Source: Pseudooceanicola sediminis (lineage in GTDB: Bacteria > Pseudomonadota > Alphaproteobacteria > Rhodobacterales > Rhodobacteraceae). From it: a DNA stretch of 64,000 nt. Under the pieces are notes generated by a model. That model was not told where the DNA came from, did no database searches, and saw nothing but the letters and a program-made list of their open reading frames with translations. Shown in pieces: positions 3,387 through 64,000 of the stretch. Position 1 is the first letter of the stretch; every line of letters begins with the position of its first letter. Both the position numbers and the translations under genes were made by a program. The stretch spans positions 1 to 64,000 of the forward strand of contig NZ_QWJJ01000002.1 in assembly GCF_003575965.1 (NCBI RefSeq), in the 5' to 3' direction.

Positions 3387-3423
3387 ACCGTTCGGATACC
3401 GCTCTGATACCGTCCAGATACCG
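3387..3423 (+). repeat. Four ACCG blocks on an exact 11-bp period (copy A)
   Basis: ACCG begins at 3387, 3398, 3409 and 3420, each separated by 7 bases. The last three units read GGATACCG, TGATACCG and AGATACCG, and the array ends in ACCGACGT. It lies between the convergent 3' ends of mntH and the VOC gene. Matching arrays occur at 41609-41645 and, inverted, at 57175-57211. Confidence 0.8.
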
Positions 3424-3499
3424 ACGTTCGAATCCGGCGATATCAAGGGCTTGGCCCGCTCAGACCGGCAAATGCCGACGTCGGTGCGCCAGACCGCCC

Positions 3500-6904: not shown

Positions 6905-7930
6905 ATGACCGACACGATGCAACGGATCGTTCTGGCGCGACGACCGCAGGGCTTTCCCGTCGACGCCGATTTCCGACTCGAAGATATCGACATGCCCTCG
7001 CCCGCCGCGGGCGAGGTGCTTGTACGCCTGACCCACATGTCGCTGGATCCGTACATGCGGGGCCGGATGGACTATGTCAAAAGCTACACCGCGCCCCAGG
7101 AGCTGGATCAGACCATGGGCGCCGGGGGTGTCGGGGAGGTGATCGCCTCACGCGATGACGGCTTCGCACCGGGCGACAAGGTGTTCGGGATGTTCGGCTG
7201 GGCAAGTCACGCCTGCCTGCCCGCCAACCAGTTGCGCAAGCTCGACCCCGACCTGCCGCCCTCGACCGCGCTTGGCGTACTGGGGATGCCGGGATTCACC
7301 GCCTGGTCGGGCCTGGATGCCTATGCCAAGATGAAGGCAGGCGAAACGCTGGTGGTGGCAGCGGCGACAGGTCCCGTCGGCTCGATGGTCGGGCAACTGG
7401 CCAAGAAGGCAGGGCTGCGTGTCGTCGGCGTCGCCGGCGGGCCGGACAAATGCAAGATGGCGGTCGAGACCTTCGGCTTTGACGCCTGTGTCGATCACCG
7501 TGCCTACAAGACGCCGATCGAGATGATGGAGGCGCTGCACGCCGAATGCCCGGATGGCATCGACGTCTATTTCGAAAACGTCGGCGGGCAGGTTCTGGGT
7601 GGCGTACTGCCAATCATGAACACCTACGGCAGGATCATCGTCTGCGGCATGATCGCGTGGTATTCGGGCGAAAGCGACGACACCGGCCAGATGCCGCTGC
7701 AAAAGCTGTGGCGCATGGCGCTGGTCAAGCGTCTGACGATCCAGGGGCTGCTGCAAACCGATCATGTGGATCGGTTCGGCGAATTCCTGGCAGAGGTCGC
7801 ACCGGATGTTAAATCCGGCAAGATTGCCTATCTCGAAGACGTGGCAGAGGGTCTTGAAAACGCACCCCAGGCCTTCTTTTCGATGCTCAAGGGCGGCAAT
7901 ACCGGCAAGCAGGTCGTCAAGATCTCCTGA
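6905..7930 (+). CDS. NADP-dependent medium-chain oxidoreductase (CurA / 2-alkenal reductase-like)
   Basis: This 341-residue MDR-superfamily protein lacks zinc ligands. RIVLARRPQGFPVDADFRLE opens it, SLDPYMRGRMDYVKSY is typical of the leukotriene B4 dehydrogenase/CurA subgroup, and AAATGPVGSMVGQLAKKAG is the Rossmann nucleotide loop. ENVGGQVLGGVLP and RIIVCGMIAWYSG complete the family pattern. These enzymes reduce alkenal or enone double bonds with NADPH. The frame opens at GTG 6881, but the ATG at 6905 follows GGAAAGG at proper spacing and matches the family N-terminus. The gene is monocistronic and ends in a long hairpin. Confidence 0.88.
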   Translation: MTDTMQRIVLARRPQGFPVDADFRLEDIDMPSPAAGEVLVRLTHMSLDPYMRGRMDYVKSYTAPQELDQTMGAGGVGEVIASRDDGFAPGDKVFGMFGWASHACLPANQLRKLDPDLPPSTALGVLGMPGFTAWSGLDAYAKMKAGETLVVAAATGPVGSMVGQLAKKAGLRVVGVAGGPDKCKMAVETFGFDACVDHRAYKTPIEMMEALHAECPDGIDVYFENVGGQVLGGVLPIMNTYGRIIVCGMIAWYSGESDDTGQMPLQKLWRMALVKRLTIQGLLQTDHVDRFGEFLAEVAPDVKSGKIAYLEDVAEGLENAPQAFFSMLKGGNTGKQVVKIS

Positions 7931-39656: not shown

Positions 39657-40175
39657 TCAGTCACGGGCCATTTCACGCTTCAGCTTCTGCATCTTGCGGG
39701 TGATCATCTGGCGCTTCATCGGCGTCAGGTAATCGATGAACAGCTTGCCATCCAGGTGGTCGATCTCGTGCTGCACACAGATCGCCCAAAGGCCGCCAAA
39801 GGTTTCCTGCTGCGCGCGCCCGTCGCGGTCCATCCAGCGGGCCGTCACCTCGGCAGGGCGTGTCACCGGCGCATATTGCTCGGGGATCGACAGGCAGCCT
39901 TCCTCGTAGGATTGGGTCTCGTCGCTGGCGGCGATGATCTCGGGGTTGAACATGACCAGCGGGCGCGGTGCCTCGCCGTCTTCCTTGACGCAATCCAGCA
40001 CGATCAGCCTTTGCAGGATGCCGATCTGCGGGGCCGCCAGGCCGATACCCGGCGCGTCGTACATGGTTTCCAGCATGTCATCGGACAGCAGCCGCAGCTC
40101 GTCCGAAAGATCGGGCAAGGGGGCGGCGACCTTTTTCAGGCGCGGATCGGGGTGGATCAGGATCTGGCGTTTCAT
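39657..40175 (-). CDS. def: Peptide deformylase, canonical
   Basis: This 172-residue metalloenzyme removes N-formyl from nascent proteins. GIGLAAPQIG, EEGCLSIPEQ and VQHEIDHLDG are all consensus, giving the Cys and two His metal ligands and the catalytic Glu. The frame is open to 40280; ATG 40175 gives MKRQILIHPDPRLKKVAAPL, the family start. It is the first of three deformylase-fold genes upstream of fmt. It is divergent from the patB-like gene. Confidence 0.96.
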   Translation of the reverse strand: MKRQILIHPDPRLKKVAAPLPDLSDELRLLSDDMLETMYDAPGIGLAAPQIGILQRLIVLDCVKEDGEAPRPLVMFNPEIIAASDETQSYEEGCLSIPEQYAPVTRPAEVTARWMDRDGRAQQETFGGLWAICVQHEIDHLDGKLFIDYLTPMKRQMITRKMQKLKREMARD

Positions 40176-40340
40176 GCGCCCCATGTAGGACAAGCTTTGC
40201 CCTTGCGCAATATTGGCCGACGCCGTGCCGATCACCGCCTTGCGTGCAGCCACGCGCAGATCCGGGCCGGCCCTGCGCACCGCGGCCCCTTGCGCCGGGC
40301 CGGCAAATCAATAGCGTTCCCGTCAATGACAGGAGACAAC

Positions 40341-41513
40341 ATGGATTTCGACGAGATCATCGAACGGCGCGGCACCCATTCCGCCAAATGGGACGGCATG
40401 GAAAGCTATTGCGGCGTCTCACCCGAGAACGGCCTGCCGATGTGGGTGGCCGACATGGACTTTCGCCCCCCCACCTGCGTGCAGAGCGCGTTGCAGGCCT
40501 ACCTCGATCACGGGATCTATGGCTATTTCGGCGACGACAGCGCCTATCGCGCCGCGATCTGCTGGTGGATGGACAACCGCCATGGCTGGACACTGGACCC
40601 CAGGGCGATCTTTTCGACCCACGGCCTGGTCAATGGCACCGGCCTCTGCCTGCAGGCATTTACAAAACCGGGGGACGGCGTGGTGCTGTTCACCCCGGTG
40701 TATCACGCCTTCGCCCGGGTCATCAAAGCCGCGGAGCGTGACGTGGTCGAATGCGAACTGGCCCTGAACGACGGCCGCTACGAGTTGGACTTCGACGCCT
40801 ACGATGCGCAGATGACCGGATCGGAAACGATGCTGATCCTGTGTTCGCCGCACAATCCCGGTGGCCGCGTCTGGAGCCGAGCCGAATTGCAGGGCGTCGC
40901 CGATTTCGCGCGCCGTCACGATCTGATCATCGTGTCGGACGAGATCCACTGCGACCTCGTGCTGCCGGGCCAGAAACATCTGCCGATGGCGATGGTGGAC
41001 GACACCATCGCGGATCGGCTGGTGATGATGACGGCGACCACCAAGACCTTCAACCTGGCCGGCGGGCATGTCGGCAACGTGATCATCCACGACCCCGCGC
41101 TGCGCAAGCGGTTCGAGGCGGTGATGATGGCCAATGGCATTTCCCCCAACGCCTTTGCGGTGCACATGGCGACCGCGGCCTATTCCCCCGAAGGCGCGGC
41201 CTGGGTCGATGCGCTCTGTGATTACCTGGACGGCAATTGCCGTCTGTTCGATGCCGGGATCAATGCGATCCCCGGGGTCCGGTCCATGCGGCTGGAGGGA
41301 ACCTACCTGGCCTGGGTGGATTTTTCCGGCACCGGTATGGCCCCGGACGAGGTGCGGCGGCGCATCCTCGACGACGCCAGGATCGCCGTGAACTTTGGCG
41401 AGGTCTTCGGCGCGGGCGGTGACGGCTTTCAGCGTTTCAACCTCGGGACCCAGAGAGCGCGGGTGGAAGAGGCGGTCAAGCGGATGACGGAGGCGTTTTC
41501 CGATCTGCAATAG
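40341..41513 (+). CDS. PatB/MalY-type cystathionine beta-lyase (C-S lyase)
   Basis: This 390-residue PLP enzyme splits C-S bonds of cystathionine or related thioethers to pyruvate, ammonia and a thiol. MWVADMDFRPPTCVQSALQA and CSPHNPGGRVWSRAEL are PatB/MalY motifs, and TATTKTFNLAGGHVGNVI contains the Schiff-base Lys. GTYLAWVDFSG precedes the C-terminal Arg region. ATG 40341 follows AGGAGA; the longer open frame is antisense to def. Divergent from the deformylases. Substrate among cystathionine, cysteine conjugates or methylthio compounds is open. Confidence 0.91.
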   Translation: MDFDEIIERRGTHSAKWDGMESYCGVSPENGLPMWVADMDFRPPTCVQSALQAYLDHGIYGYFGDDSAYRAAICWWMDNRHGWTLDPRAIFSTHGLVNGTGLCLQAFTKPGDGVVLFTPVYHAFARVIKAAERDVVECELALNDGRYELDFDAYDAQMTGSETMLILCSPHNPGGRVWSRAELQGVADFARRHDLIIVSDEIHCDLVLPGQKHLPMAMVDDTIADRLVMMTATTKTFNLAGGHVGNVIIHDPALRKRFEAVMMANGISPNAFAVHMATAAYSPEGAAWVDALCDYLDGNCRLFDAGINAIPGVRSMRLEGTYLAWVDFSGTGMAPDEVRRRILDDARIAVNFGEVFGAGGDGFQRFNLGTQRARVEEAVKRMTEAFSDLQ

Positions 41514-41538
41514 CAAGGACGGTGACCCTGGCCGGGGC

Positions 41539-41586
41539 GGGGGGCCAGCCCCCCGAGCCCCCCGGGATATTTCCGACAGGGAAACA
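41539..41586. repeat. Composite dispersed repeat, copy 2
   Basis: The hairpin GGGGGG-CCAG-CCCCCC (41539-41554) is followed by GAGCCCCCCGGGATATTTCC and then GACAGGGAAACA. The tail matches the complement of 32851-32882 almost base for base. It lies just after the C-S lyase stop and before the ACCG array. Confidence 0.75.
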
Positions 41587-41608
41587 TGGGGGTGCAGGGC
41601 AATTTAGC

Positions 41609-41645
41609 ACCGTTCAGACACCGCCCGGATACCGCTCAAATACCG
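41609..41645 (+). repeat. Four ACCG blocks on an exact 11-bp period (copy B)
   Basis: ACCG begins at 41609, 41620, 41631 and 41642. The last 26 bases (through ACCGACGT) differ from copy C by one base. This copy ends 37 bases before the start of a glyoxalase-like gene, so it could be a promoter-proximal site, unlike the other two copies. Confidence 0.8.
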
Positions 41646-41681
41646 ACGTCGAAAATGTTTGTTTCCAAAGGGTTGCGGGAT

Positions 41682-42323
41682 ATGTCTGGACGGGCTGAAT
41701 TTGACCACCTCGTGATCGGTGCACGCACCCTGCAAGAGGGGGTGGCCTTTGCCGAGGCGACCTTGGGGGTGGTGATGCCCGAGGGGGGCGCGCATCCCCT
41801 GATGGGTACGCACAACCACCTGCTGCGCCTGGGTGCGGCATCGTTCCTGGAGGTCATTGCGCCCGATCCCGCCGCCCGCGCACCGGGGCGGCCCCGCTGG
41901 TTCGGGCTGGATCATCCGCCCGAGGTGCCGCGTCTGCTGCACTGGGTCCTGCGGATGCCCGGCCTGGCAGCGAGGCGCGATCTGCTGCCTGCCGAGGTCG
42001 GGGAGGTGATCGAACAGACCCGGGGGGCGTTGAGATGGCAGATCACGGTGCCGCGCGACGGCAGCCTGCCGTTCGGTGGCGCCTTTCCCAGCGTCATCGA
42101 TTGGGGTGCACGGGACGACCTGCCCCCCTGCGCGATGCCGGGGGCGGGATTTTCCATGACACGGTTGGAGGTTGCGCATCCCGATGCAGGGCGCATCGGC
42201 GATCTGCTGGCGCCGCTTCTGGATGACGGGAGAATTTGTTTCGCAGCGAAACGCACGCCCGGCCTGACAGCCTGGCTGGAGGGGCCGCGGGGTACGGTGG
42301 TTCTGGGCGGTGGTCCTCGTTGA
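41682..42323 (+). CDS. Glyoxalase-like (VOC, Glyoxalase_3-type) protein
   Basis: This 213-residue protein opens [20 protein letters not shown], the first VOC strand-helix. [20 protein letters not shown] gives probable metal-site residues. Later comes [11 protein letters not shown], a second half-module, shortened relative to classical VOC. The pattern fits the bacterial Glyoxalase-like (PF13468-type) proteins of unknown substrate. ATG 41682 is the conserved start; an ATG at 41655 is also in frame. It is preceded by ACCG array B and followed by a 16-bp tandem repeat. Confidence 0.8.
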
Positions 42324-42334
42324 GCGACGGCGCC

Positions 42335-42398
42335 GGGTCAGGGCAGTGTCGGGTCAGGGCGGTGTCGGGTCAGGGCGGTGTCGACTCAGGGTGGTGTC
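42335..42398. repeat. Tandem repeat, four 16-bp units
   Basis: Units start at 42335, 42351, 42367 and 42383 with consensus GGGTCAGGGCGGTGTC. Units 2 and 3 are identical, unit 1 has one change and unit 4 three. It lies between the glyoxalase-like stop and the hsp20 terminator, and does not extend either reading frame. Confidence 0.9.
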
Positions 42399-42405
42399 GG
42401 GCATG

Positions 42406-42435
42406 AAAAAAGCGCGGCCCCCCAGGGACCGCGCT
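42406..42435 (-). terminator. Rho-independent terminator of hsp20
   Basis: Read on the minus strand, AGCGCGG pairs with CCGCGCT and is followed by six T residues (42406-42411 as A on plus). It lies 24 bases beyond the hsp20 stop. Confidence 0.85.
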
Positions 42436-42459
42436 CTGTCACCGCTGAGCCGAGGTAAG

Positions 42460-42936
42460 TCAGGCGTCTGCGGTTTCGTCTGTCGTTTCGATCGCCTTGG
42501 CCGTCACGGTATTGCCGCGCGCGATGTCGATCCGGCGGGGCTTGAGGGCCTCGGGCACTTCCCGGACCAGATCGATATGCAGCATGCCATCGGCATGGGT
42601 GGCGCCGGAGACACGCACGTGATCGGCAAGGGCAAAGCGGCGTTCGAACGCGCGGGTCGCAATGCCACGATGCAGATAGGTGCGCGGGCTCTCATCGCTC
42701 GGTTTGCTGGCAGAGACGACGAGCGCGCGGTCCTTGACCTCGACATTCAGATCGCTGTCGGCAAAGCCGGCGACCGCGATCGAGATACGATAGGAATCTT
42801 CGGCAGTCTTTTCGATATTGTAAGGAGGATAGGTCGAGGTGCCGACATCGCTGGTCAGCGCACGATCCATCATGTCGGCAAGCTGATCAAAGCCGACGGT
42901 GGCACGATAGAGGGGGGCTAGGTCGAAATTACGCAT
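42460..42936 (-). CDS. Small heat-shock protein (Hsp20/IbpA type)
   Basis: This 158-residue alpha-crystallin-domain chaperone binds unfolding proteins. MRNFDLAPLYRATVGFDQLA is the IbpA-type opening. The crystallin domain covers about residues 35-125 (NIEKTAEDSYRISIAVAGFA to ADGMLHIDLVREVPE). TYLHRGIATRAFERRFALAD is the dimerisation-loop string. ATG 42936 is chosen over 42957 because the family starts MRNFD and AAGGA lies at 9 bases. I saw no ROSE-type hairpin or clear sigma-32 promoter upstream. Confidence 0.93.
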   Translation of the reverse strand: MRNFDLAPLYRATVGFDQLADMMDRALTSDVGTSTYPPYNIEKTAEDSYRISIAVAGFADSDLNVEVKDRALVVSASKPSDESPRTYLHRGIATRAFERRFALADHVRVSGATHADGMLHIDLVREVPEALKPRRIDIARGNTVTAKAIETTDETADA

Positions 42937-43083
42937 GGGTTTGTCATCCTTCATCAAGCGATAACGGTTTACGTGATGGCCCTCCGCGACGGGACGGGCC
43001 GGTCTGTGCAGGACCCGTCTTCTGGCGTCCTGCTGAAAACTATCTGGGAAGAGATCCTTGCGCTTTCAAGAGATCGCGGCGCC

Positions 43084-43875
43084 TCAGCGGCTGAAAATTG
43101 CCGAACCTGTCTGCGCGGCGGGCTGGGTGTTTGCCTGCTGTTCCAGCAGCAACTGGTCTGCCTGCGGCAGGGCCGCCATGCCGAACCCCTTGCCCGCGGC
43201 AAGCGCGGCGCGAAGCTGGATAAGGGGCTGGCCCAGCTGGGTGCCGAGCGCGACATGCCGCCCCCCCATATCGGCCTTGGCCGAGACGATGGAGACGATG
43301 CGGGGCTGGCCTGCGACAACGCTGAAGATGGGCGCGCCGGACGCGCCGAAATCGACGGTGCATGAGGTGACGAGCACGCCTTCCTGCTGGGTGATCACGG
43401 CGCAACCCTGTTGCAGTGGCGGGGCTTCGGCGCGGTCGAAGGCATAGGCGACGATGCTGATGCGTGCGCCACGGGCGGGCCGCAGATCGGTGTCAAAGGG
43501 CACGGCGGCATCGGCCCCGATCGGGTCGGACAGTTCCAGCAGCGCGACATCATTGCGCAACCGGTTGGGCGAATGGCCGGCGTCATAAACGTAATCCGGA
43601 TCGACCACCGCCCGCCGGACCTGACGGGTGGCGCGGGCGCGTCCGTTGATCAGGCCCGCGCGAAAGGCAATCGCGGTTGGTTCTATCCTTTGGCCGCTGA
43701 CCGCATCGAACATGCAGTGCGCGGCCGTCAGCACGAGGTTGTCCGCGATCAGCGCACCGGTGCAGAACCCCTTTCCCGCGATATCCAGACGCCCGACACC
43801 CTGCCAAGCCGAGGCATCCTGCGCCAGTGCGGGCGGGGCAAGGGCAAGCAGCAGAAAGACATAGCGTAACAGCAT
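43084..43875 (-). CDS. Secreted trypsin-like (S1) serine protease
   Basis: This 263-residue protein has a signal peptide (LLRYVFLLLALAPPALA) and an S1 fold. FCTGALIADNLVLTAAHCMF supplies the catalytic His. RNDVALLELSDPIGADAAVP supplies the Asp, and TVDFGASGAPIFSVVAG the Ser. The usual GDSGG is GASGA, so the Asp that normally pairs with the mature N-terminus is absent and zymogen-type activation is unlikely. It is probably periplasmic or secreted. Single gene between glcF and hsp20. Substrate unknown. Confidence 0.87.
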   Translation of the reverse strand: MLLRYVFLLLALAPPALAQDASAWQGVGRLDIAGKGFCTGALIADNLVLTAAHCMFDAVSGQRIEPTAIAFRAGLINGRARATRQVRRAVVDPDYVYDAGHSPNRLRNDVALLELSDPIGADAAVPFDTDLRPARGARISIVAYAFDRAEAPPLQQGCAVITQQEGVLVTSCTVDFGASGAPIFSVVAGQPRIVSIVSAKADMGGRHVALGTQLGQPLIQLRAALAAGKGFGMAALPQADQLLLEQQANTQPAAQTGSAIFSR

Positions 43876-43928
43876 CGGTGCTCCGAAAACCCGGTTTCAG
43901 CCCGGATGCCCCAGGTGCTGTGCCCCTA

Positions 43929-45257
43929 TCAACGCAGGATCGGCACCGGGTGTTGTGCCCGAGCGCGCGTCATCGCCGGAGGCTTTGGCCCCCCCGTCAC
44001 CCAGTCCAGCAGCTCGACCGTATGAACCACCGGTACGCCGGTGGCAGATCCGATCTGCATCATGCAGCCGATATTCCCCGCCGCGATGACCTGCGGCTGA
44101 AGCGCCTCCAGCGTGCGGACCTTGCGCGCTTTCAACGTGGCGGATATTTCGGGCTGCATCAGGTTGTAGGTGCCGGCAGAGCCGCAGCACAGATGTGCAT
44201 CCGCTGGCAACATCACCTGAAAACCCGCCGCCGCCAACAGCTTCTTTGGGGGATCGGTAATCTTCTGACCATGCTGTAGCGAACAGGCCGCGTGATAGGC
44301 GATCCGCAGGCCCTGCGCCTCGGGGCGCATCGGGTCGGGAAGGGTCAGTTCGGCCAGCAATTCCGTGATATCCCTGGCCAGTCCCGCGACCTTCGCTGCC
44401 TGATCACAGAGCGCATGATCGCGAAACATGTGACCGTAATCCTTGACAGTCGTGCCGCAGCCCGAGGTATTGATGACGATGGCATCCAGACCCTCGCCCT
44501 CCATCTCGCGGCCCCAGGCGCGGATATTGGCGGCAGCGGCGTCGTGGCTGTCTGTCTCTCGTCCCATGTGATGCGTCAGGGCGCCACAACAACCCGCGCC
44601 CTTGGCGACAACCACCTCGACCCCCAGCCGCGTCAGCAGGCGGATCGTCGCATCGTTGATATCGGTGTTCAGCGCCTTTTGCGCGCACCCGGTCATCAGC
44701 GCCACACGCTTGCGCCGGGCCCCGCTGGCGGCAAAGCTCTGCGGGGCGTCGTTGCGCGAGACCGGCGGGATACGCGCGGGTGCCATATCCAGCATTGCGC
44801 GCAGCCGGGCATCGGGAACGAACCGCCGCAAAGGGCGCACGATCCTCGCCCCCCACAGCGCGGCGCGAAACCGGCGCGGATAGGGTAGAATGGCTGCCAG
44901 CAGAGATCGTAACATGCGATCATGCCATGGGCGGCGATACCTCTTTTCGATGTAGGCGCGGGCATGGTCGACCAGGTGCATGTAGTGGACCCCGGACGGA
45001 CAGGTCGTCATGCAGGCCAGACAGGACAGACAGCGGTCGATGTGCTTGACCGTCTTTTCGTCTGGCACACGTTCATTTTCCAGCATGTCCTTGATCAGGT
45101 AGATGCGGCCGCGCGGGCTGTCGAGCTCATCGCCCAGCATTTGGTAGGTCGGGCAGGTGGCGGTGCAAAATCCGCAATGCACACAGGATCGCAGGATCTG
45201 GTTCGCCCGCGCCGTCCCGGGGTCGGCCAGTTGTGCCTTGGTAAACGTCGTCTGCAT
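43929..45257 (-). CDS. glcF: Glycolate oxidase iron-sulfur subunit GlcF
   Basis: This 442-residue electron-transfer subunit of glycolate dehydrogenase passes electrons to the respiratory chain. It has two [4Fe-4S] motifs: CVHCGFCTATCPTYQ near residue 25 and CLSCLACMTTCPSGV near residue 77. It also has two CCG-type domains (GAGCCGALTHHMG and LCCGSAGTYNLMQPEIS). The glcD-glcE-glcF order is canonical. A 33-codon frame fills the gap to glcE exactly. The AGGAG site for glcF lies inside that frame's end. Confidence 0.95.
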   Translation of the reverse strand: MQTTFTKAQLADPGTARANQILRSCVHCGFCTATCPTYQMLGDELDSPRGRIYLIKDMLENERVPDEKTVKHIDRCLSCLACMTTCPSGVHYMHLVDHARAYIEKRYRRPWHDRMLRSLLAAILPYPRRFRAALWGARIVRPLRRFVPDARLRAMLDMAPARIPPVSRNDAPQSFAASGARRKRVALMTGCAQKALNTDINDATIRLLTRLGVEVVVAKGAGCCGALTHHMGRETDSHDAAAANIRAWGREMEGEGLDAIVINTSGCGTTVKDYGHMFRDHALCDQAAKVAGLARDITELLAELTLPDPMRPEAQGLRIAYHAACSLQHGQKITDPPKKLLAAAGFQVMLPADAHLCCGSAGTYNLMQPEISATLKARKVRTLEALQPQVIAAGNIGCMMQIGSATGVPVVHTVELLDWVTGGPKPPAMTRARAQHPVPILR

Positions 45258-55658: not shown

Positions 55659-56270
55659 ATGGTTAACGGCCAATTCATGCTCACACAAAATACCGTGAAA
55701 GTGACAGCAGAGAGTATCCTTGCCTCTGCAAAAGCAGCCAAGGGACGCGGACTTCCGCCTGTTCACGCCTGGAACCCGGAATTTTGCGGCGATCTGGATA
55801 TGCGTATCGCACGCGATGGCACATGGTTCTATCTGGGAACGCCCATCGGTCGACCTGAGCTGGTGCGCCTGTTCTCGACCATCCTGCGCAAGGATGGGGA
55901 TCAATACTTCCTCGTCACGCCGGTCGAAAAAGTTGGTATCACGGTTGAGGATGCGCCATTCGTTGCCGTCGATTTCGACGTGGAGGGCACGGGCGAGACG
56001 CAATCTCTGACCTTCCTGACCAATGTAGCGGACAAGGCCGCTGCCGGGCCGGATCACCCGATCAGGGTTGTCCGCGACCCGGAGACGGGCGAGCCATCGC
56101 CCTATGTGCTGGTGCGCGACAGGCTGGAGGCGTTGATTGATCGCAAGAGTTTCTACCGCCTCGTCGATCTGGGCGACACCTGCGAAAGTGAGGGGCAGGA
56201 CTGGTTCGGGGTCTGGTCCGGCGGCACGTTTTTCCCGATTATTCCGGCGGACGAGTTGACCGCGCCCTAG
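55659..56270 (+). CDS. DUF1285-family protein
   Basis: This protein of about 203 residues contains HAWNPEFCGDLDMRIARDGT, WFYLGTPIGRPELVRLFSTI and FLVTPVEKVGITVEDAPFVA, the two-layer DUF1285 pattern. It has no signal or membrane segment. Function is unknown. ATG 55659 and ATG 55677 are both possible starts; neither has a strong ribosome site. The long open frame upstream is antisense to the MoxR gene. The DUF1285 gene next to a MoxR operon recurs in this group, suggesting a functional link. Confidence 0.86.
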   Translation: MVNGQFMLTQNTVKVTAESILASAKAAKGRGLPPVHAWNPEFCGDLDMRIARDGTWFYLGTPIGRPELVRLFSTILRKDGDQYFLVTPVEKVGITVEDAPFVAVDFDVEGTGETQSLTFLTNVADKAAAGPDHPIRVVRDPETGEPSPYVLVRDRLEALIDRKSFYRLVDLGDTCESEGQDWFGVWSGGTFFPIIPADELTAP

Positions 56271-56334
56271 GCCGCACGCATCCTGATTCCAGACGGTCGG
56301 GCCCCTTGGGCCTTGCGCGGAAGGGGGATGAACC

Positions 56335-57123
56335 ATGCCGAAATTCGCAGCCAGCCTGACGACGCTGTTTACCGAAATTCCCATGCAAAAAAGGGTCTTG
56401 GCGGCAGCCGAGGCCGGGTTCGAGGCGGTCGAGATCCCGTTCCCCTATGACACGCCCGCGCAGGACATCCGCAATGCCCTGGGCTTTGCGAACCTGCCGC
56501 TGGTCCTGATCAATGCGCCACCGCCCAACTACACGGGTGGCACGGCGGGGTTCGCCGCGATTGTCGGCGCGCAGGAGAGGTTCCGGCATGATTTCCGGCG
56601 CGCGTTGCGCTATGCGCAGACGTTGAAAGCCAGGCATATCCACGTCATGTCCGGGGCCGCGTGGGGCGACCAGGCCTTTGATACCATGGTTGAAAACCTC
56701 AGATGGGCCTGCGCCTTCGCACCAGAACAGAGCCTGACCATCGAACCGATGAATGCGACCGACCTGCCCGGCTATTTCCTGTGCGATTTCGAGCGTGGTG
56801 CGGGGGTCATCGCGGCGGTTGGCGCAGAAAACCTCGGGCTGCAATTCGACACCTACCATGCCCATATGATCACCGGTAACGTACTGGAAAGCTGGGATAA
56901 ATATGGCGGTCTGGCGCATCATGTGCAGATTGCCGGGCCGCAGGGCCAGCATGAGCCCGAGCAGGGAGAGATCGATTTCCGCAGCTTTTTCGCCCGCCTC
57001 GATGCCAGCGGCTATGACGGCTGGGTCGGTGCCGACTATCGACCACGCGGCAGGACCCAGGACGGACTGGGCTGGCTTGCCGATGCGCAGGCGGGACTCG
57101 GGGCGTTCAAACGGCCCGCCTGA
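56335..57123 (+). CDS. hyi: Hydroxypyruvate isomerase-family TIM-barrel protein
   Basis: This 262-residue protein fits hydroxypyruvate isomerase, which converts hydroxypyruvate and tartronate semialdehyde. LTIEPMNATDLPGYFLCDF supplies the first catalytic Glu, LQFDTYHAHMITGN metal-site Asp and His, and HHVQIAGPQGQHEPEQGEID the later ligands. At the second catalytic position, family members read GxEYxP, but here it is GADYRP, so Glu has become Asp. No glyoxylate carboligase or tartronate reductase gene adjoins it. AAGGGGGA precedes the ATG. Confidence 0.8.
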   Translation: MPKFAASLTTLFTEIPMQKRVLAAAEAGFEAVEIPFPYDTPAQDIRNALGFANLPLVLINAPPPNYTGGTAGFAAIVGAQERFRHDFRRALRYAQTLKARHIHVMSGAAWGDQAFDTMVENLRWACAFAPEQSLTIEPMNATDLPGYFLCDFERGAGVIAAVGAENLGLQFDTYHAHMITGNVLESWDKYGGLAHHVQIAGPQGQHEPEQGEIDFRSFFARLDASGYDGWVGADYRPRGRTQDGLGWLADAQAGLGAFKRPA

Positions 57124-57438
57124 CGTCTGCGATTGGGGCGATGACGCCCCCTGCTGACCCGGATTCAGGAACGTCGGTATTTGAGCGGTATCTGGGCGGT
57201 AACTAGGCGGTTTTTGCGCCGCTGAAACCTTTACGAACAATGACTTGGTGCGCACGTTGCCACGTCGGTATCCGGCACCGCCATGCGCCGCGAAAGGTGG
57301 CGTCGCGGGCTGGCCGAAGCGTGGCCGCCGACGCCGGGTTGAGCGGCCTTTCACAACCCCGACGAGGAGCCTCGATCAGGCCGACCAGAGGGGGAGACCG
57401 ATTTGCCCGGGCGGCGGGCCACGCGCCTGTGCCGTATG
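57124..57438. other. Intergenic gap (315 bases) without a supported gene
   Basis: This gap separates the convergent hyi and CDF genes. It contains ACCG array C (57175-57211) and a further GTCGGTATCCGG unit near 57264. Short open frames here have unnatural composition and no ribosome site. No RNA gene was recognised. Confidence 0.6.
57175..57211 (-). repeat. Four ACCG blocks on an exact 11-bp period (copy C)
   Basis: CGGT begins at 57175, 57186, 57197 and 57208 on plus, so the minus strand reads ACCG with 11-bp phasing ending in ACCGACGT. Another TACCGACGT unit lies at about 57263-57271 on minus. It is in a convergent gap, as copy A is. Confidence 0.8.
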
Positions 57439-58413
57439 TCAGTGACCGATCAGGGGGGCGTCGTTGCAGGCATTCGTCGGCTCCTCAAGCTCGATCGTGA
57501 CATGGGTCAGGCCAAAGGACTCGGACAGGCATTGCTTGATCGCCGCGCGGGTATCTGCGCCGCCGGAAGGGGCCGCGAAGGCGTCGGGGGTCAGAACGAC
57601 ATGCGCCTCGAGCGCGACTTCGCCTTCCTGCATCTGCCACAGGTGCAGGTGGTGGACCGAGGCGACGCCGGGCACGGTGCCGAGCTGCGCCGTCACATCG
57701 CCCACGGTCGGGGTTTCGGGACTGCCCAGCATCAGCAGGCGGATCACAGGCGTAATCTCGCTGCCGGCGTGCCACAGGATATAGGCTGAGATGGCGATGG
57801 TGACGATGGGATCGACCAGCGTCCAGTCATACAGCAGGATCACCGTACCGGCGACAATCACCGCAACCGAGCCGAGCGCATCAGCCACGTTGTGCAGAAA
57901 GGCCGCCCGCATGTTCACGCTGTCACGGGACAGGCGCAGCACCAGCAGCGCGGTGATGGTGTCGATGACCAGCGCGACGGCGGCGACGATGACAACCATC
58001 CATCCCGCCACATCGCGCGGTTCAAAGAATCGCTGCACGCCTTCGGCTGCGAGGAACAGGGCGATGACAATCAGCGTGGTATAGTTGATCAGGGCGGCGA
58101 CGACTTCGGCCCGGCCATAGCCGAAGGTCATGCCGGCATCCGCCGGGCGGCGGGCAATGCGGCGCGCCAGATAGGCGATCACCAGCGACAGGGCGTCCGA
58201 CAGGTTATGCACCGCATCCGCGATCAGGGCCAGGGAACCGGACAAGATACCGGCGATGATCTGAACGACCGTCAGCAGGATGTTGACGGCGACGGCCCAT
58301 GCAACGCGGCGGTCCCCGACAAGATCCGGATCGGTATGATGATGCCCGGCGTGGGAGTGGCCCGCGTGGGAGTGACCTTGGGGGCTGTCGTGGTGCGAAT
58401 GATCATGCGGCAT
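57439..58413 (-). CDS. Cation diffusion facilitator, zinc exporter (ZitB/CzcD type)
   Basis: This 324-residue inner-membrane antiporter exports Zn (and perhaps Cd). A His-rich N-terminus (GHSHAGHSHAGHHHTDP) precedes six helices. ADAVHNLSDALSLVIAYLAR in TM2 and AFLHNVADALGSVAVI in TM5 each supply the His-x3-Asp pair of the Zn site. The cytoplasmic C-terminal domain contains VASVHHLHLWQMQEGEVALE. ATG 58413 is the conserved MPHDHSH start; the frame is open to 58518 through its promoter. It is driven by a MerR-type promoter. Confidence 0.93.
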   Translation of the reverse strand: MPHDHSHHDSPQGHSHAGHSHAGHHHTDPDLVGDRRVAWAVAVNILLTVVQIIAGILSGSLALIADAVHNLSDALSLVIAYLARRIARRPADAGMTFGYGRAEVVAALINYTTLIVIALFLAAEGVQRFFEPRDVAGWMVVIVAAVALVIDTITALLVLRLSRDSVNMRAAFLHNVADALGSVAVIVAGTVILLYDWTLVDPIVTIAISAYILWHAGSEITPVIRLLMLGSPETPTVGDVTAQLGTVPGVASVHHLHLWQMQEGEVALEAHVVLTPDAFAAPSGGADTRAAIKQCLSESFGLTHVTIELEEPTNACNDAPLIGH

Positions 58414-58462
58414 ATTGCGTCTTTCGTAAGGGTTTGTCGGGGCTGGCCCCCAGGTTGCCCTT

Positions 58463-58493
58463 AATCTAGGATCTCTAGTCACTAGAGCTTCAA
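58463..58493 (-). promoter_or_regulatory. MerR-type promoter and operator for the CDF gene
   Basis: On the minus strand, TTGAAG (58488-58493) and TAGATT (58463-58468) are separated by 19 bases, the over-long spacer typical of MerR-activated promoters. The spacer contains a perfect 15-bp palindrome CTCTAGT-C-ACTAGAG (58473-58487). The promoter lies 50 bases before the CDF ATG and just upstream of the divergent merR-like gene. Confidence 0.85.
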
Positions 58494-58507
58494 GAGGAGA
58501 TTTCACA

Positions 58508-58918
58508 ATGTTTTCCATCGGAGCCCTGTCCCGGCAGACCGGGGTGAAAGTGCCGACGATTCGCTATTACGAACAGGCCGGGCTGTTGCCGGAGGGCGAG
58601 AGGACGGCGGGCAATCAGCGCCGCTATGGTCGCGCCGGGTTGGACCGGCTGCATTTCATTCGCCATGCCCGCGACCTGGGCCTGCCACTGGAGGCGATCC
58701 GGCATCTGCTGGAGCTGAGCGACAAGGGGCGTGACTGCCACGGCGCCCATGAGATTGCGCGCGACCATCTGGCCGACGTGCGGTCGCGCATCACCCGGTT
58801 GAAACGGCTGGAAACCGAGCTGGAGCGCCTGGCCGCCACCTGTGACCATGCCCCGGGAGAGCCTTGCGGGCTGATCGAGGCGCTTGGCGACCACGGGCAG
58901 TGCAGCGGCGCGCATTAG
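58508..58918 (+). CDS. MerR-family metal-responsive regulator (ZntR-like)
   Basis: This 136-residue protein has a winged helix (MFSIGALSRQTGVKVPTIRY, YEQAGLLPEG), a dimer helix and a C-terminal metal site. Cys77, Cys112, His114 and Cys120 occupy positions close to those of ZntR/CadR zinc-site residues, with an extra Cys132 and His129. It should twist the promoter at 58463-58493 to activate the divergent CDF exporter on zinc or a similar ion. AGGAG precedes the ATG by 8 bases. Metal specificity is inferred from the partner. Confidence 0.9.
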   Translation: MFSIGALSRQTGVKVPTIRYYEQAGLLPEGERTAGNQRRYGRAGLDRLHFIRHARDLGLPLEAIRHLLELSDKGRDCHGAHEIARDHLADVRSRITRLKRLETELERLAATCDHAPGEPCGLIEALGDHGQCSGAH

Positions 58919-58982
58919 GCCCGCGATTCGGCACATCTCCGGCCCGCCCCGCCGCGCAGGGGGCGCGATGCAATCGCGGGCC
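58918..58982. repeat. 11-bp inverted repeat around a GC-rich loop after merR
   Basis: GGCCCGCGATT (58918-58928) pairs perfectly with AATCGCGGGCC (58972-58982) across 43 bases that can fold further. It starts at the last base of the MerR-like stop codon and lies between convergent merR and polA, so it may act as a terminator or mRNA end for both. Confidence 0.55.
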
Positions 58983-59045
58983 CTGTTCGCGGAGAGGGTA
59001 TTAGCGGGGGCGGGTTTGCAGGGCCGGGTTTGCGGGGGCCGGGCG

Positions 59046-61850
<2,805 letters not shown>

Positions 61851-61991
61851 GTTGCGCCTCCGGATGTTGCGGAGACCGTAATGCCACGAAGACCGCGGAG
61901 TCGCCAGCGTGCATCAACCGCCCTTGCCGCGACGGCCGCGCCCCCGACCGGCGAATGTGTCGGGACAAGGGGGCAATCCGGGGGCAAGGGA

Positions 61992-62058
61992 GGGGGGCGC
62001 TGCCCCCCGCGCCGGGGCGGCGCCCCCCCGGGGTATTTCCCGCCAGATGATGAAGAGC
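61992..62058. repeat. Composite dispersed repeat, copy 4
   Basis: A hairpin GGGGGGC-GCT-GCCCCCC (61992-62008) is followed by CGCCCCCCCGGGGTATTTCC and then CGCCAGATGATGAAGAGC. The tail matches 32813-32840. It is in the 281-base gap between polA and the zinc-finger gene, which holds no gene. Confidence 0.75.
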
Positions 62059-62131
62059 GCGCGGCGAAGACGGACCGACGGTGAGTTTAGGCGCGCCGGG
62101 CCGTGGGTGCGTGCGGGCCTAGTGACTGGGC

Positions 62132-62323
62132 CTAGTGGCTGGGCGCGTCGGGGGTGCCGTGGTCCTTGAGGACATATTTCGCGTCGCAATAGCCGCATTC
62201 GACGAAGCCGGTGTCGTCGGGGATGGTGAGCCAGACGCGCGGGTGACCGAGCGCCCCTTCGCCGCCGTCACAGGCGACCTTGTGGCTATCGACGATCCTG
62301 GTTTCCGGTGCTTCGATCGGCAT
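62132..62323 (-). CDS. CHCC-type zinc-finger small protein
   Basis: This 63-residue protein contains [20 protein letters not shown] and [12 protein letters not shown]. Cys, His and a Cys-x2-Cys pair make the zf-CHCC knuckle related to the NDUFS6 zinc domain. The bacterial member's role is unknown; complex I association is speculative. ATG 62323 follows AAAGGGA; an ATG 18 codons upstream is in frame but not conserved-looking. It stands alone, downstream of the HIT gene by about 100 bases. Confidence 0.88.
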
Positions 62324-62421
62324 GGGCTGTCCCTTTGCGAATGGCTGAGCTGCTGTGCTGGAATTACCGCGAAACAAGGCTCCGTGGCAAGCGGTGAGGC
62401 AGGCGGGCGCCGCGGCGCCGG

Positions 62422-62796
62422 TCAGGCCTGAGGCGCGACCATGCGGCCCATGTTGCGACCGGCCAGGATATGCAGGTGGAAATGCGGCACCTCCTGCACG
62501 CCATCGGGGCCGGCGTTCGAGATATAGCGCGCGCCGGTGTCCGGGGTGATCCCGGCGTCGGCGCAGATGCGCGCGACGGTGCGGTTGAAATCGACGATCT
62601 CGGCGTCGCTCGCCTCGGCTGCGAAATGGTCATAGGTCACGTAGGGGCCCTTGGGGATGACCAAGACATGAGTCGGGGCCTGCGGGCGGATGTCCGCGAA
62701 GGCCAGGGTGTGATCGGTTTCGAGAACGGTGTTGTTGGGAATTTCACCGCGCAGGATTTTCGCGAAGATGTTCTGGTCGTCGTAGGAATAGGTCAA
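62422..62796 (-). CDS. HIT-family (histidine triad) nucleotide hydrolase
   Basis: This 124-residue HINT-type protein hydrolyses purine phosphoramidates. [20 protein letters not shown] opens it, [20 protein letters not shown] follows, and [15 protein letters not shown] is the histidine triad near residues 103-109. Length and spacing are typical of bacterial HinT. Downstream of the glycosyltransferase gene by about 46 bases, possibly in the same transcript. Confidence 0.95.
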
Positions 62797-62842
62797 GGTT
62801 TACCTCGGGTTGGCAGGGGTCGGGTGCGGGTCAGGACGGGCC

Positions 62843-64000
62843 TCAGTCCGTGAACAGGTGGTCGAGCGCCACGATATCATGTGCGGTGGCCAGTGGCACG
62901 CCCAGGAATCCGGCGACCGCGGGGGCATTTTCCGCCGCTGCCTGCTGTTCGCGGATGCGGTAGAGATTTTCGAAATCGCTGTCGCGGATCTGATCGGATT
63001 CGAAGGTCATGTCGTGGCGGATGGTGGGCAGCAGGCGCGCCAGGGTTTCGGGCGGCGTGCGTTCGCCCGCGAGACCGACGCGCCGGGCGTGGCCGGTGAG
63101 ATAATCGTCGCTAAAGGCGCAGTCGATTTCGAGCAGGCGGGTCTGGGCGCGATCACTGCAGAAGTCGTGCAGCAGGTCGAGGCCGGAGGGATCCATGCAG
63201 ACGACCATGCGGTCCGTCTTGTGATAATCGAACAGCATCCGCATCAGCGCGCGTCGGTGGCGGGTGCGTTTTTCCAGGTTGGTCTGGATGCCGCCGAGGT
63301 CGGGCAGCGGCGTGTGGTCTTCGTGAAACAGGTAATCGACGCAGTGCAGGCCGGTCACCTGGCGGATCTGGTCGACCAGCCGCTTTGCGACGTGCCATTT
63401 CTTGCAGATCACGATCATCAGCTGGCGTTCCCGTCCCAGCGAGCTTTCGGTTTCCCAGAAGCGGGTGGCAAAGCGGCGCCCGACGCGGCCGCGCCCCGAG
63501 AGGAACCGGAACAGCGAGCGCCCCTCGTTCGAGATCTGGAAATCGACACCGCGGGCGGCGTAGAGCTGACCCAGGCGGCGCTTCATTTCATGCGCCTGGG
63601 GGCTGATCTTGCGGGCAAAGAGGTAATCCTGGCCAAGCAGCAGGTCGTAGTGGTCGTTGTAGAAGGTGACCGGCATGCCGTAGTCGGTGAACAGCAGGAA
63701 CGTCAGGGTGCGGGCGCTGATTTCGGTTTCCGGCACCAGGTGGCGCACGAGGGTCTGGAAGAACGTCTCGTCCGGGATCCAGGTGCGGCGGAAAAAGCGC
63801 ATCACGTCGCGGCGGGTGCGGCAAAAATCGAGGATCGCCTCGATCGTGCGGCGGCGCAGGCACCACCACTGGGAGCCGATCTGGATCTGCAGGTCCGCCG
63901 GGATGCTGCGCGCCAGACCGAAGCGCCGTTGAAAGGCGATGGATCTGTAGAAAAGACGCTTGTTCTTTCGCTCGTTGAAGGGGTGCCGGTAGATCAGCCG
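62843..64000 (-). CDS. Core-2/I-branching (GT14) glycosyltransferase, 5' part outside window
   Basis: The frame is open from 62843 to the right edge, giving at least 385 residues without a start. RLIYRHPFNERKNKRLFYRS leads to GSQWWCLRRRTIEAIL and then RFFRRTWIPDETFFQTLVRH. These match the acceptor and catalytic end of GT14 beta-1,6-N-acetylglucosaminyltransferases. The last 250 residues (from about MPVTFYNDHYDLLLGQDYLF) form the extra C-terminal domain found in Rhodobacteraceae members (DUF5928-type). An internal GTG at 63805 is not the start, since conserved sequence continues upstream. Likely a cell-surface glycan enzyme. Confidence 0.82.
   Translation of the reverse strand, partial: RLIYRHPFNERKNKRLFYRSIAFQRRFGLARSIPADLQIQIGSQWWCLRRRTIEAILDFCRTRRDVMRFFRRTWIPDETFFQTLVRHLVPETEISARTLTFLLFTDYGMPVTFYNDHYDLLLGQDYLFARKISPQAHEMKRRLGQLYAARGVDFQISNEGRSLFRFLSGRGRVGRRFATRFWETESSLGRERQLMIVICKKWHVAKRLVDQIRQVTGLHCVDYLFHEDHTPLPDLGGIQTNLEKRTRHRRALMRMLFDYHKTDRMVVCMDPSGLDLLHDFCSDRAQTRLLEIDCAFSDDYLTGHARRVGLAGERTPPETLARLLPTIRHDMTFESDQIRDSDFENLYRIREQQAAAENAPAVAGFLGVPLATAHDIVALDHLFTD

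Follow-up and report, generated by a model that had tools for sequence, protein, structure and literature searches.

What is the role of short, strictly phased repeats in the intergenic DNA of Pseudooceanicola sediminis? The window, that is the whole stretch of 64,000 nucleotides analysed here, contains three arrays of four ACCG blocks with a period of 11 bp. Array A (positions 3387 to 3423, plus strand) follows an Nramp gene (PF01566) at a distance of 50 bp, within a convergent gap. Array B (41609 to 41645, plus strand) lies between two co-directional genes on the same strand, an aminotransferase gene (PF00155) and a glyoxalase-like gene (PF13468), and array C (57175 to 57211, minus strand) occupies a second convergent gap, flanked by a xylose-isomerase-like gene (PF01261) and a cation-efflux gene (PF01545). 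Searching the window with the pattern (ACCGN7)3ACCG at up to one mismatch yielded these three arrays and no further one, where shuffling predicts 0.01. The search reproduced the coordinates and strands reported in the initial annotation, the placement of two copies (A and C) in convergent gaps, and the common ending: each array is directly followed by an ACGT tail (3424 to 3427 and 41646 to 41649, both on the plus strand, and 57171 to 57174 on the minus strand). The 3′ part common to B and C, with its single mismatch, extends from the second ACCG to the ACGT and measures 30 bases instead of the 26 originally given. Pfam names of the flanking genes revealed no evident common theme, and Rfam returned no match in the window at gathering score.

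The three arrays belong to a genome-wide family. In the P. sediminis genome (4.44 Mb in 54 contigs) the four-block pattern occurs 101 times exactly, against none for the reversed control pattern; when up to one mismatch is tolerated, the numbers rise to 152 and 4, whereby some arrays yield two overlapping matches. The excess of exact matches, together with the conservation described below, argues against the chance occurrence of three copies that the initial annotation had considered. Among the 86 P. sediminis arrays with full flanks, 77 comprise four blocks, 6 three and 3 five, so that the proposed number of exactly four is typical but not absolute, and 75 of the 86 terminate in ACCGACGT, with the ACGT tail after the last block. 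Across the family the arrays are 26-48 bp long, with a spacing of 26-82 kb, and they have the 11-bp tandem half-site layout, in line with the one-turn, head-to-tail geometry suggested at the outset. One gap (locus L020, P. sediminis C4) harbors two arrays, at 1409-1434 and 1501-1537, with a similar ACCGACGTGCCGATCTGGCC stretch after each of them, which gives the impression of a duplication.

The flanks of the arrays likewise contain recurrent sequences. In 18 of 43 P. sediminis arrays, A and B among them, the last block is followed at a distance of 20 bp by a CAAN4TTR core, which resembles an IHF site; in the window, the IHF-like TATCAAGGGCTTG is located 3′ of array A (3441 to 3453, plus strand) and the core CAAAGGGTTG 20 bp past array B (41666 to 41675, plus strand), both being sequence matches only. 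In the set of arrays from other genera, which includes about six chance-looking loci named below, GTTAAC occurs within 80 bp of the arrays at 3.9 per kb on the 5′ side and 3.5 per kb on the 3′ side, compared with 0.17 per kb in other intergenic DNA. The motif is also enriched in the array flanks of P. sediminis, P. spongiae and genome G290, and no enrichment was seen in those of G089. Where GTTAAC or a one-base variant is present in both flanks, the span from one to the other takes discrete values, 86-87 or 98-100 bp in 22 of 26 pairs. In addition, by eye, an A/T tract follows the arrays described so far (type 1) and those of G167 on the 3′ side. The latter represent a second type, CCATACGN4, likewise with an 11-bp period, which came to light through the reversed control pattern; originally meant as noise, this pattern has at least nine matches in 9 of 394 genomes. 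Type 2 was read in G167 and G089 (loci L197-L226), and is represented by a count only in G096, G127, G138, G157, G197, G306 and G389. The type-2 arrays of G167 and G089 resemble type 1 in skew and GC asymmetry.

The arrays are accompanied by a polar change in base composition. In the window, a domain of mostly negative GC skew (1 to 55000, plus strand) holds arrays A and B, both on the plus strand, and a mostly positive domain, which starts within 56000 to 64000 and extends to about 133 kb of the contig, contains array C and three further minus-strand arrays. Positive bins within the negative domain are found at 6-8 kb (0.011) and at 40-44 kb; the latter (40001-44000) is a local positive skew at array B against its surroundings. 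Over seven sets, the skew of the ACCG strand around arrays is negative in 254 of 284 cases. On a 364-kb P. sediminis contig the skew changes its sign in blocks of about 20-100 kb, and each of the 14 arrays was judged consistent with its block; by 4-kb bins, the array-holding bin has the predicted sign for 10 of the 14 arrays on this contig and for 9 of 11 in P. spongiae. Deconvolution resulted in similar profiles for the contiguous DNA of both species, with a step on the 3′ side, about 2 kb from the array, a maximum from the array to -7 kb, and next to no skew by -20 to -40 kb on the 5′ side. Beyond about +2 kb on the 3′ side a small skew persists (0 to -0.025), and this residue, where it amounts to -0.01 to -0.025, counts against the explanation that we favor below. 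Within 1.2 kb of the arrays the skew is the same on both sides, and the edge of the gradient is therefore not at the array itself. A unidirectional origin whose switch sits at the array was rejected on these grounds, the edge being about 2 kb 3′ and the skew equal within 1.2 kb. Array positions and orientations account for the skew with an R2 of 0.39 in P. sediminis and 0.33 in P. spongiae, better than all 100 fits with random positions (best 0.35 and 0.23, respectively); among 100 fits with random orientations the best reached 0.41, above the P. sediminis value, and 0.27, below that of P. spongiae. T/A skew around the arrays is weak and inconsistent.

Fourfold degenerate sites reveal what underlies the skew. 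Going 5′-ward from the array, their skew declines from -0.155 through -0.127, -0.106, -0.083 and -0.052 to -0.026. On the P. sediminis contig C increases from 0.41 to 0.52, A and T drop together, and G stays at 0.37-0.40; C climbs likewise in P. spongiae, where G dips in some bins, as it does in other genera. Hence, 5′ on the ACCG strand, C is gained at the expense of A and T, and G is flat or falls slightly. Fourfold GC is higher 5′ than 3′ of the array in 36 of 38 P. sediminis arrays (p 2.7e-9), in 50 of 64 arrays of the set from other genera (p 1.5e-5) and in 6 of 7 in G290. With symmetric windows the same difference was obtained for 10 of 13 arrays of the P. sediminis contig and 9 of 10 in the contiguous DNA of P. 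spongiae; none of 2000 draws of other gaps gave a value as large, and random orientations reached it in 0.1% and 0.5% of cases, respectively. The corresponding fractions are 16/17 for type 2, 16/17 for the 3-kb loci of P. spongiae, 19/25 for those of P. sediminis, 10/12 for P. atlanticus, 12/15 for G290 (p 0.055) and 6/7 for the 6-8-kb loci of P. sediminis (p 0.22); array numbers in other genera were too small for this version. Duplicate arrays, arrays too near a locus end and windows with too few fourfold sites were left out of the analysis. Taken together, arrays of other genera and of type 2 repeat the difference between the 5′ and 3′ sides.

Does the skew follow the arrays or a recent inversion? 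In P. spongiae (NZ_CP045201.1) a domain at 138-152 kb, which ends at an inverted array, has a skew of -0.088. The congener G002, which lacks an exact four-block match and any array in the stretches read, keeps the P. spongiae gene order over 112-224 kb, and its orthologous DNA has a skew of +0.014. In this comparison, which covers one region of a single congener, the matched bins nevertheless show a correlation (r 0.47), and the amplitude is smaller in G002 (sd 0.030 versus 0.072 in P. spongiae). P. spongiae has another inverted domain, whose end is at the 281-kb array, and this one recurs at the orthologous arrays of P. sediminis. A recent inversion was rejected as the cause of the mosaic skew, because the gene order at the 281-kb array is the same in P. 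sediminis, where the array is inverted too, and because the inverted skew at 138-152 kb is missing from syntenic G002. The contrast with G002 and the repetition at orthologous arrays thus indicate that the inversion of skew tracks the array. A DNA query for the ortholog of the 281-kb locus in array-less congeners returned only short, partly multi-copy matches, and the place guessed for it in G002 was not orthologous. The array-less G001 and G014 share 33 and 5 orthologs, too little common gene order for the 138-152 kb domain. A segment of G002 contains 43 triples of a different tandem repeat, with a 14-bp period, in intergenic DNA.

Arrays are mostly intergenic and show no preferred direction relative to genes. 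According to calls from a home-made gene finder, 87 P. sediminis arrays are distributed over co-directional gaps (25 with the genes, 24 against), convergent gaps (26), divergent gaps (8), one-sided gaps (2) and predicted genes (2). The absence of a gene-orientation bias disfavors a promoter or RNA role, including the RNA-level or anti-R-loop function that had been contemplated in the initial annotation, and an RNA hairpin formed by the flanks was rejected, as stems did not exceed cross-pair controls in seven sets (lowest p 0.09). The doubt expressed there about an ordinary activator site was justified, given the scarcity of divergent relative to convergent gaps, and of its suggestions the DNA-level, nucleoid-type role fares best. 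It could be argued that the arrays are ordinary sites of a regulator or nucleoid protein of the OmpR, PhoB or CtrA kind, involved in no long-range process, with gradients of another cause. The ACCG-N7-ACCG spacing is indeed that of CtrA and PhoB half-sites; however, arrays have no preference for promoter-upstream positions and the gradients would be left unexplained, for which reasons we consider this improbable.

The positions of the arrays are conserved. For 11 of 19 P. spongiae arrays examined, a P. sediminis array is located beside the same gene or genes in the same orientation, and 10 of these 11 pairs match by both flanking genes. The spacers differ between species: the third spacer begins with AC in 14 of 15 four-block arrays of P. 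spongiae and with TT, TC, CC or CT in 72 of 77 of P. sediminis, and this difference (AC versus a T or C start) is found in 10 of 10 orthologous pairs. Moreover, one type-2 array of G089 has the neighbors and orientation of type-1 arrays of P. atlanticus and of locus L174. Since position and orientation are kept while spacers change together, these results suggest a sequence-specific DNA-binding factor and not a mobile repeat or RNA element. Kept sites with concerted sequence change are what would be expected of a trans-acting reader, although concerted evolution by conversion among arrays may produce the same pattern of spacers.

Our preferred explanation, which we put forward tentatively and at somewhat short of an even chance, is that the array is a polar site bound by a putative stacking protein and starting a one-directional DNA transaction. 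The protein would stack in a head-to-tail fashion, with one subunit for each turn of the helix, and GTTAAC, the IHF-like site and the A/T tract would perhaps help the complex to form. The transaction would begin about 2 kb 3′ of the array on the ACCG strand, run 5′-ward and fade over 20-40 kb. Recombination or repair-type DNA synthesis appears to be its most likely nature, with the CGGT strand as the biased one: fixation of A-to-G and T-to-G changes on that strand would raise C on the ACCG strand without raising G. A one-sided, decaying shift from A or T to C would be the trace expected if conversion is biased or if the CGGT strand is synthesized with a preference for G. Base composition records any such process only indirectly and over the long term. 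The specificity of the protein would drift by lineage, and its sites would follow in concert.

The family is patchy in Rhodobacteraceae. Exact four-block matches are present in 7 of 23 genomes of the genus sample, 5 of which have six or more, and in 26 of 295 genomes of the family sample, 9 of which have at least five. The two-block pattern ATACCGN5ATACCG has at least nine matches in 19 of 394 genomes and any match in 99, single matches often being due to chance. Among the matches listed, most arrays from other genera are built of ACCGACGYRAT units. G290 has 44 arrays (grouped from 59 matches), and the array-less G035 yielded no 5-mer triple at period 11 in 400,000 sampled bases, 10,000 of them N. 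The chance-looking loci of the set from other genera comprise L082, L100 and L116, with Bacteroidales or Paludibacteraceae titles, and the similar L146, L166 and L172; their ACCGACGAGATACCGACGAGATACCG-like repeats, several of which are inside predicted genes, are probably unrelated. One array (L176, IMGVR_UViG_3300037791_000022, 7480-7505) is on a contig classed as viral, which may represent host sequence bordering a prophage. The titles and abstract openings listed by full-text literature searches describe no element of this kind, in agreement with the earlier statement that no family of this form is known. Patchy presence, many homogenized intergenic copies and lineage versions at conserved positions are also features that uptake signals similar to USS or DUS, kept by transfer drive and differing in dialect between lineages, would display. 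Uptake signals, however, are short, more numerous and two-sided, as opposed to the one-sided effect of the arrays, and we judge this alternative unlikely.

Alternatively, the arrays could be pac-like packaging starts of a gene transfer agent (GTA) or transducing particle, with headful packaging in one direction, at a probability that decreases away from the array, and recombination of the DNA in recipients. Decay in one direction from an imprecise start fits a packaging series, Rhodobacteraceae carry GTAs, and a search limited to the Terminase_6C family was positive in 13 of 14 genomes tested. Nevertheless, G290, with its 44 arrays and a gradient (7 arrays tested), has no Terminase_6C match, and the array-rich G238 has only a weak one, to a protein that looks unlike the GTA terminases. 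The ORF preceding TerL in the place of gp1 encodes 109-163 aa in seven array-bearing and 114-150 aa in four array-less genomes, by eye without evident extra domain. The lack of a Terminase_6C match in G290 and the similarity of the gp1-place ORFs with or without arrays weaken the interpretation as GTA start sites. It also fits poorly with the RcGTA TerS, which an excerpt of PMC6854486 describes as a non-specific DNA binder. We therefore regard packaging as a doubtful, low-probability explanation. At one locus (G263, L391) a GTA-type TerL is followed by a predicted ORF on the opposite strand and an acyl-carrier-protein-like gene, with no recognized portal gene; this GTA cluster may be broken or moved.

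We likewise attach a low probability to the idea that the arrays are a landmark of replication polarity or segregation, similar to KOPS/AIMS or Ter sites, with composition as a by-product. ParB served as an approximate marker of the origin; it is located at 3.22 Mb in P. spongiae and at 2.93 Mb in G290, and in G035 it falls on the upward switch of the skew. Near the antipode, the inferred terminus, arrays point to the terminus in 20 of 25 cases in P. spongiae, counted for the arrays among the matches listed up to 2.84 Mb, and in 7 of 8 in G290. Consistent with a landmark, searching a phage collection with the ACG-type consensus gave no match, and a plasmid collection, which may lack plasmids of array-bearing species, gave a single weak one that looks like chance; local blastn at like settings recovers known arrays. 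In the origin halves, on the other hand, orientation is near random (8/17 in P. spongiae, counted as above, and 14/22 in G290). Orientation along whole replichores was rejected for P. spongiae on this basis; the genome-wide co-orientation typical of KOPS/AIMS is replaced by a bias confined to the terminus region, which makes the orientation relative to replication a secondary trait. Furthermore, inverted arrays carry inverted skew 5′ of themselves, against the main fork, and in 20-kb bins the fourfold skew reaches 0.28 in P. spongiae, versus at most 0.16 in G035 and 0.09 in G002.

Finally, a mobile or passively spread short repeat of the MITE or REP type is very unlikely, for despite the high copy number, intergenic location and patchiness that would suit it, the flanks in seven sets have no terminal inverted repeats or hairpin and no stem beyond cross-pairing controls, and the positions are conserved with concerted sequence change.

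The GC skew of bacterial DNA is taken to reflect the direction of replication. In the parts of these genomes read here, much of it follows the orientation of arrays of 26-48 bp instead, and one skew block that runs against its surroundings has been kept between two species. What sets bacterial GC content, with mutation, selection and biased gene conversion under discussion, is a long-standing question; if confirmed, the transaction proposed above would provide a site-anchored, directional handle on it, and would point to a process that acts on DNA over a long range and recognizes its sites by an evolving code of its own.

How do the arrays compare with known systems? Chi sites, 5-8-nt words recognized by RecBCD or AddAB every few kb, are likewise polar and influence recombination 5′ of themselves, to a degree that decreases with distance; a Chi-like role is a further rival of our preferred explanation. 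The trace of the arrays is a composition gradient only, and in contrast to the dense, short Chi words they are phased, 26-48 bp long, lineage-specific and rare or absent in most relatives sampled, with a mean spacing of 82 kb in G290 and 46 kb among the listed four-block arrays of P. spongiae. KOPS/AIMS share the orientation to the terminus in its vicinity; the arrays, however, are not short words, are unoriented over most of the chromosome and are tied to autonomous composition gradients. The repeated terminase-binding motifs of pac and cos sites, sometimes with IHF and giving rise to a one-directional series, resemble the arrays, but the latter are dispersed on the host chromosome and kept in G290, where Terminase_6C has no match. 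DNA uptake sequences of Neisseriaceae and Pasteurellaceae are also dispersed in many copies, with lineage dialects at conserved positions; the arrays differ in being phased, roughly tenfold fewer and one-sided in effect. The tandem sites of OmpR, PhoB and CtrA and the centromere repeats of ParR have the same head-to-tail repeats of about 11 bp, whereas the arrays are not linked to promoters, are dispersed over the chromosome and have a binder that is putative. A broader claim, in which we place less trust than in the polar-site explanation while still giving it a real chance, is that the arrays form a new class of chromosomal elements in bacteria: dispersed polar arrays that would act as autonomous starts, from which recombination or repair synthesis proceeds in one direction for tens of kb, be read by a fast-evolving protein and set local GC content and skew. 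On this broader claim, the turnover of the motif at fixed places would be similar to that known from PRDM9.
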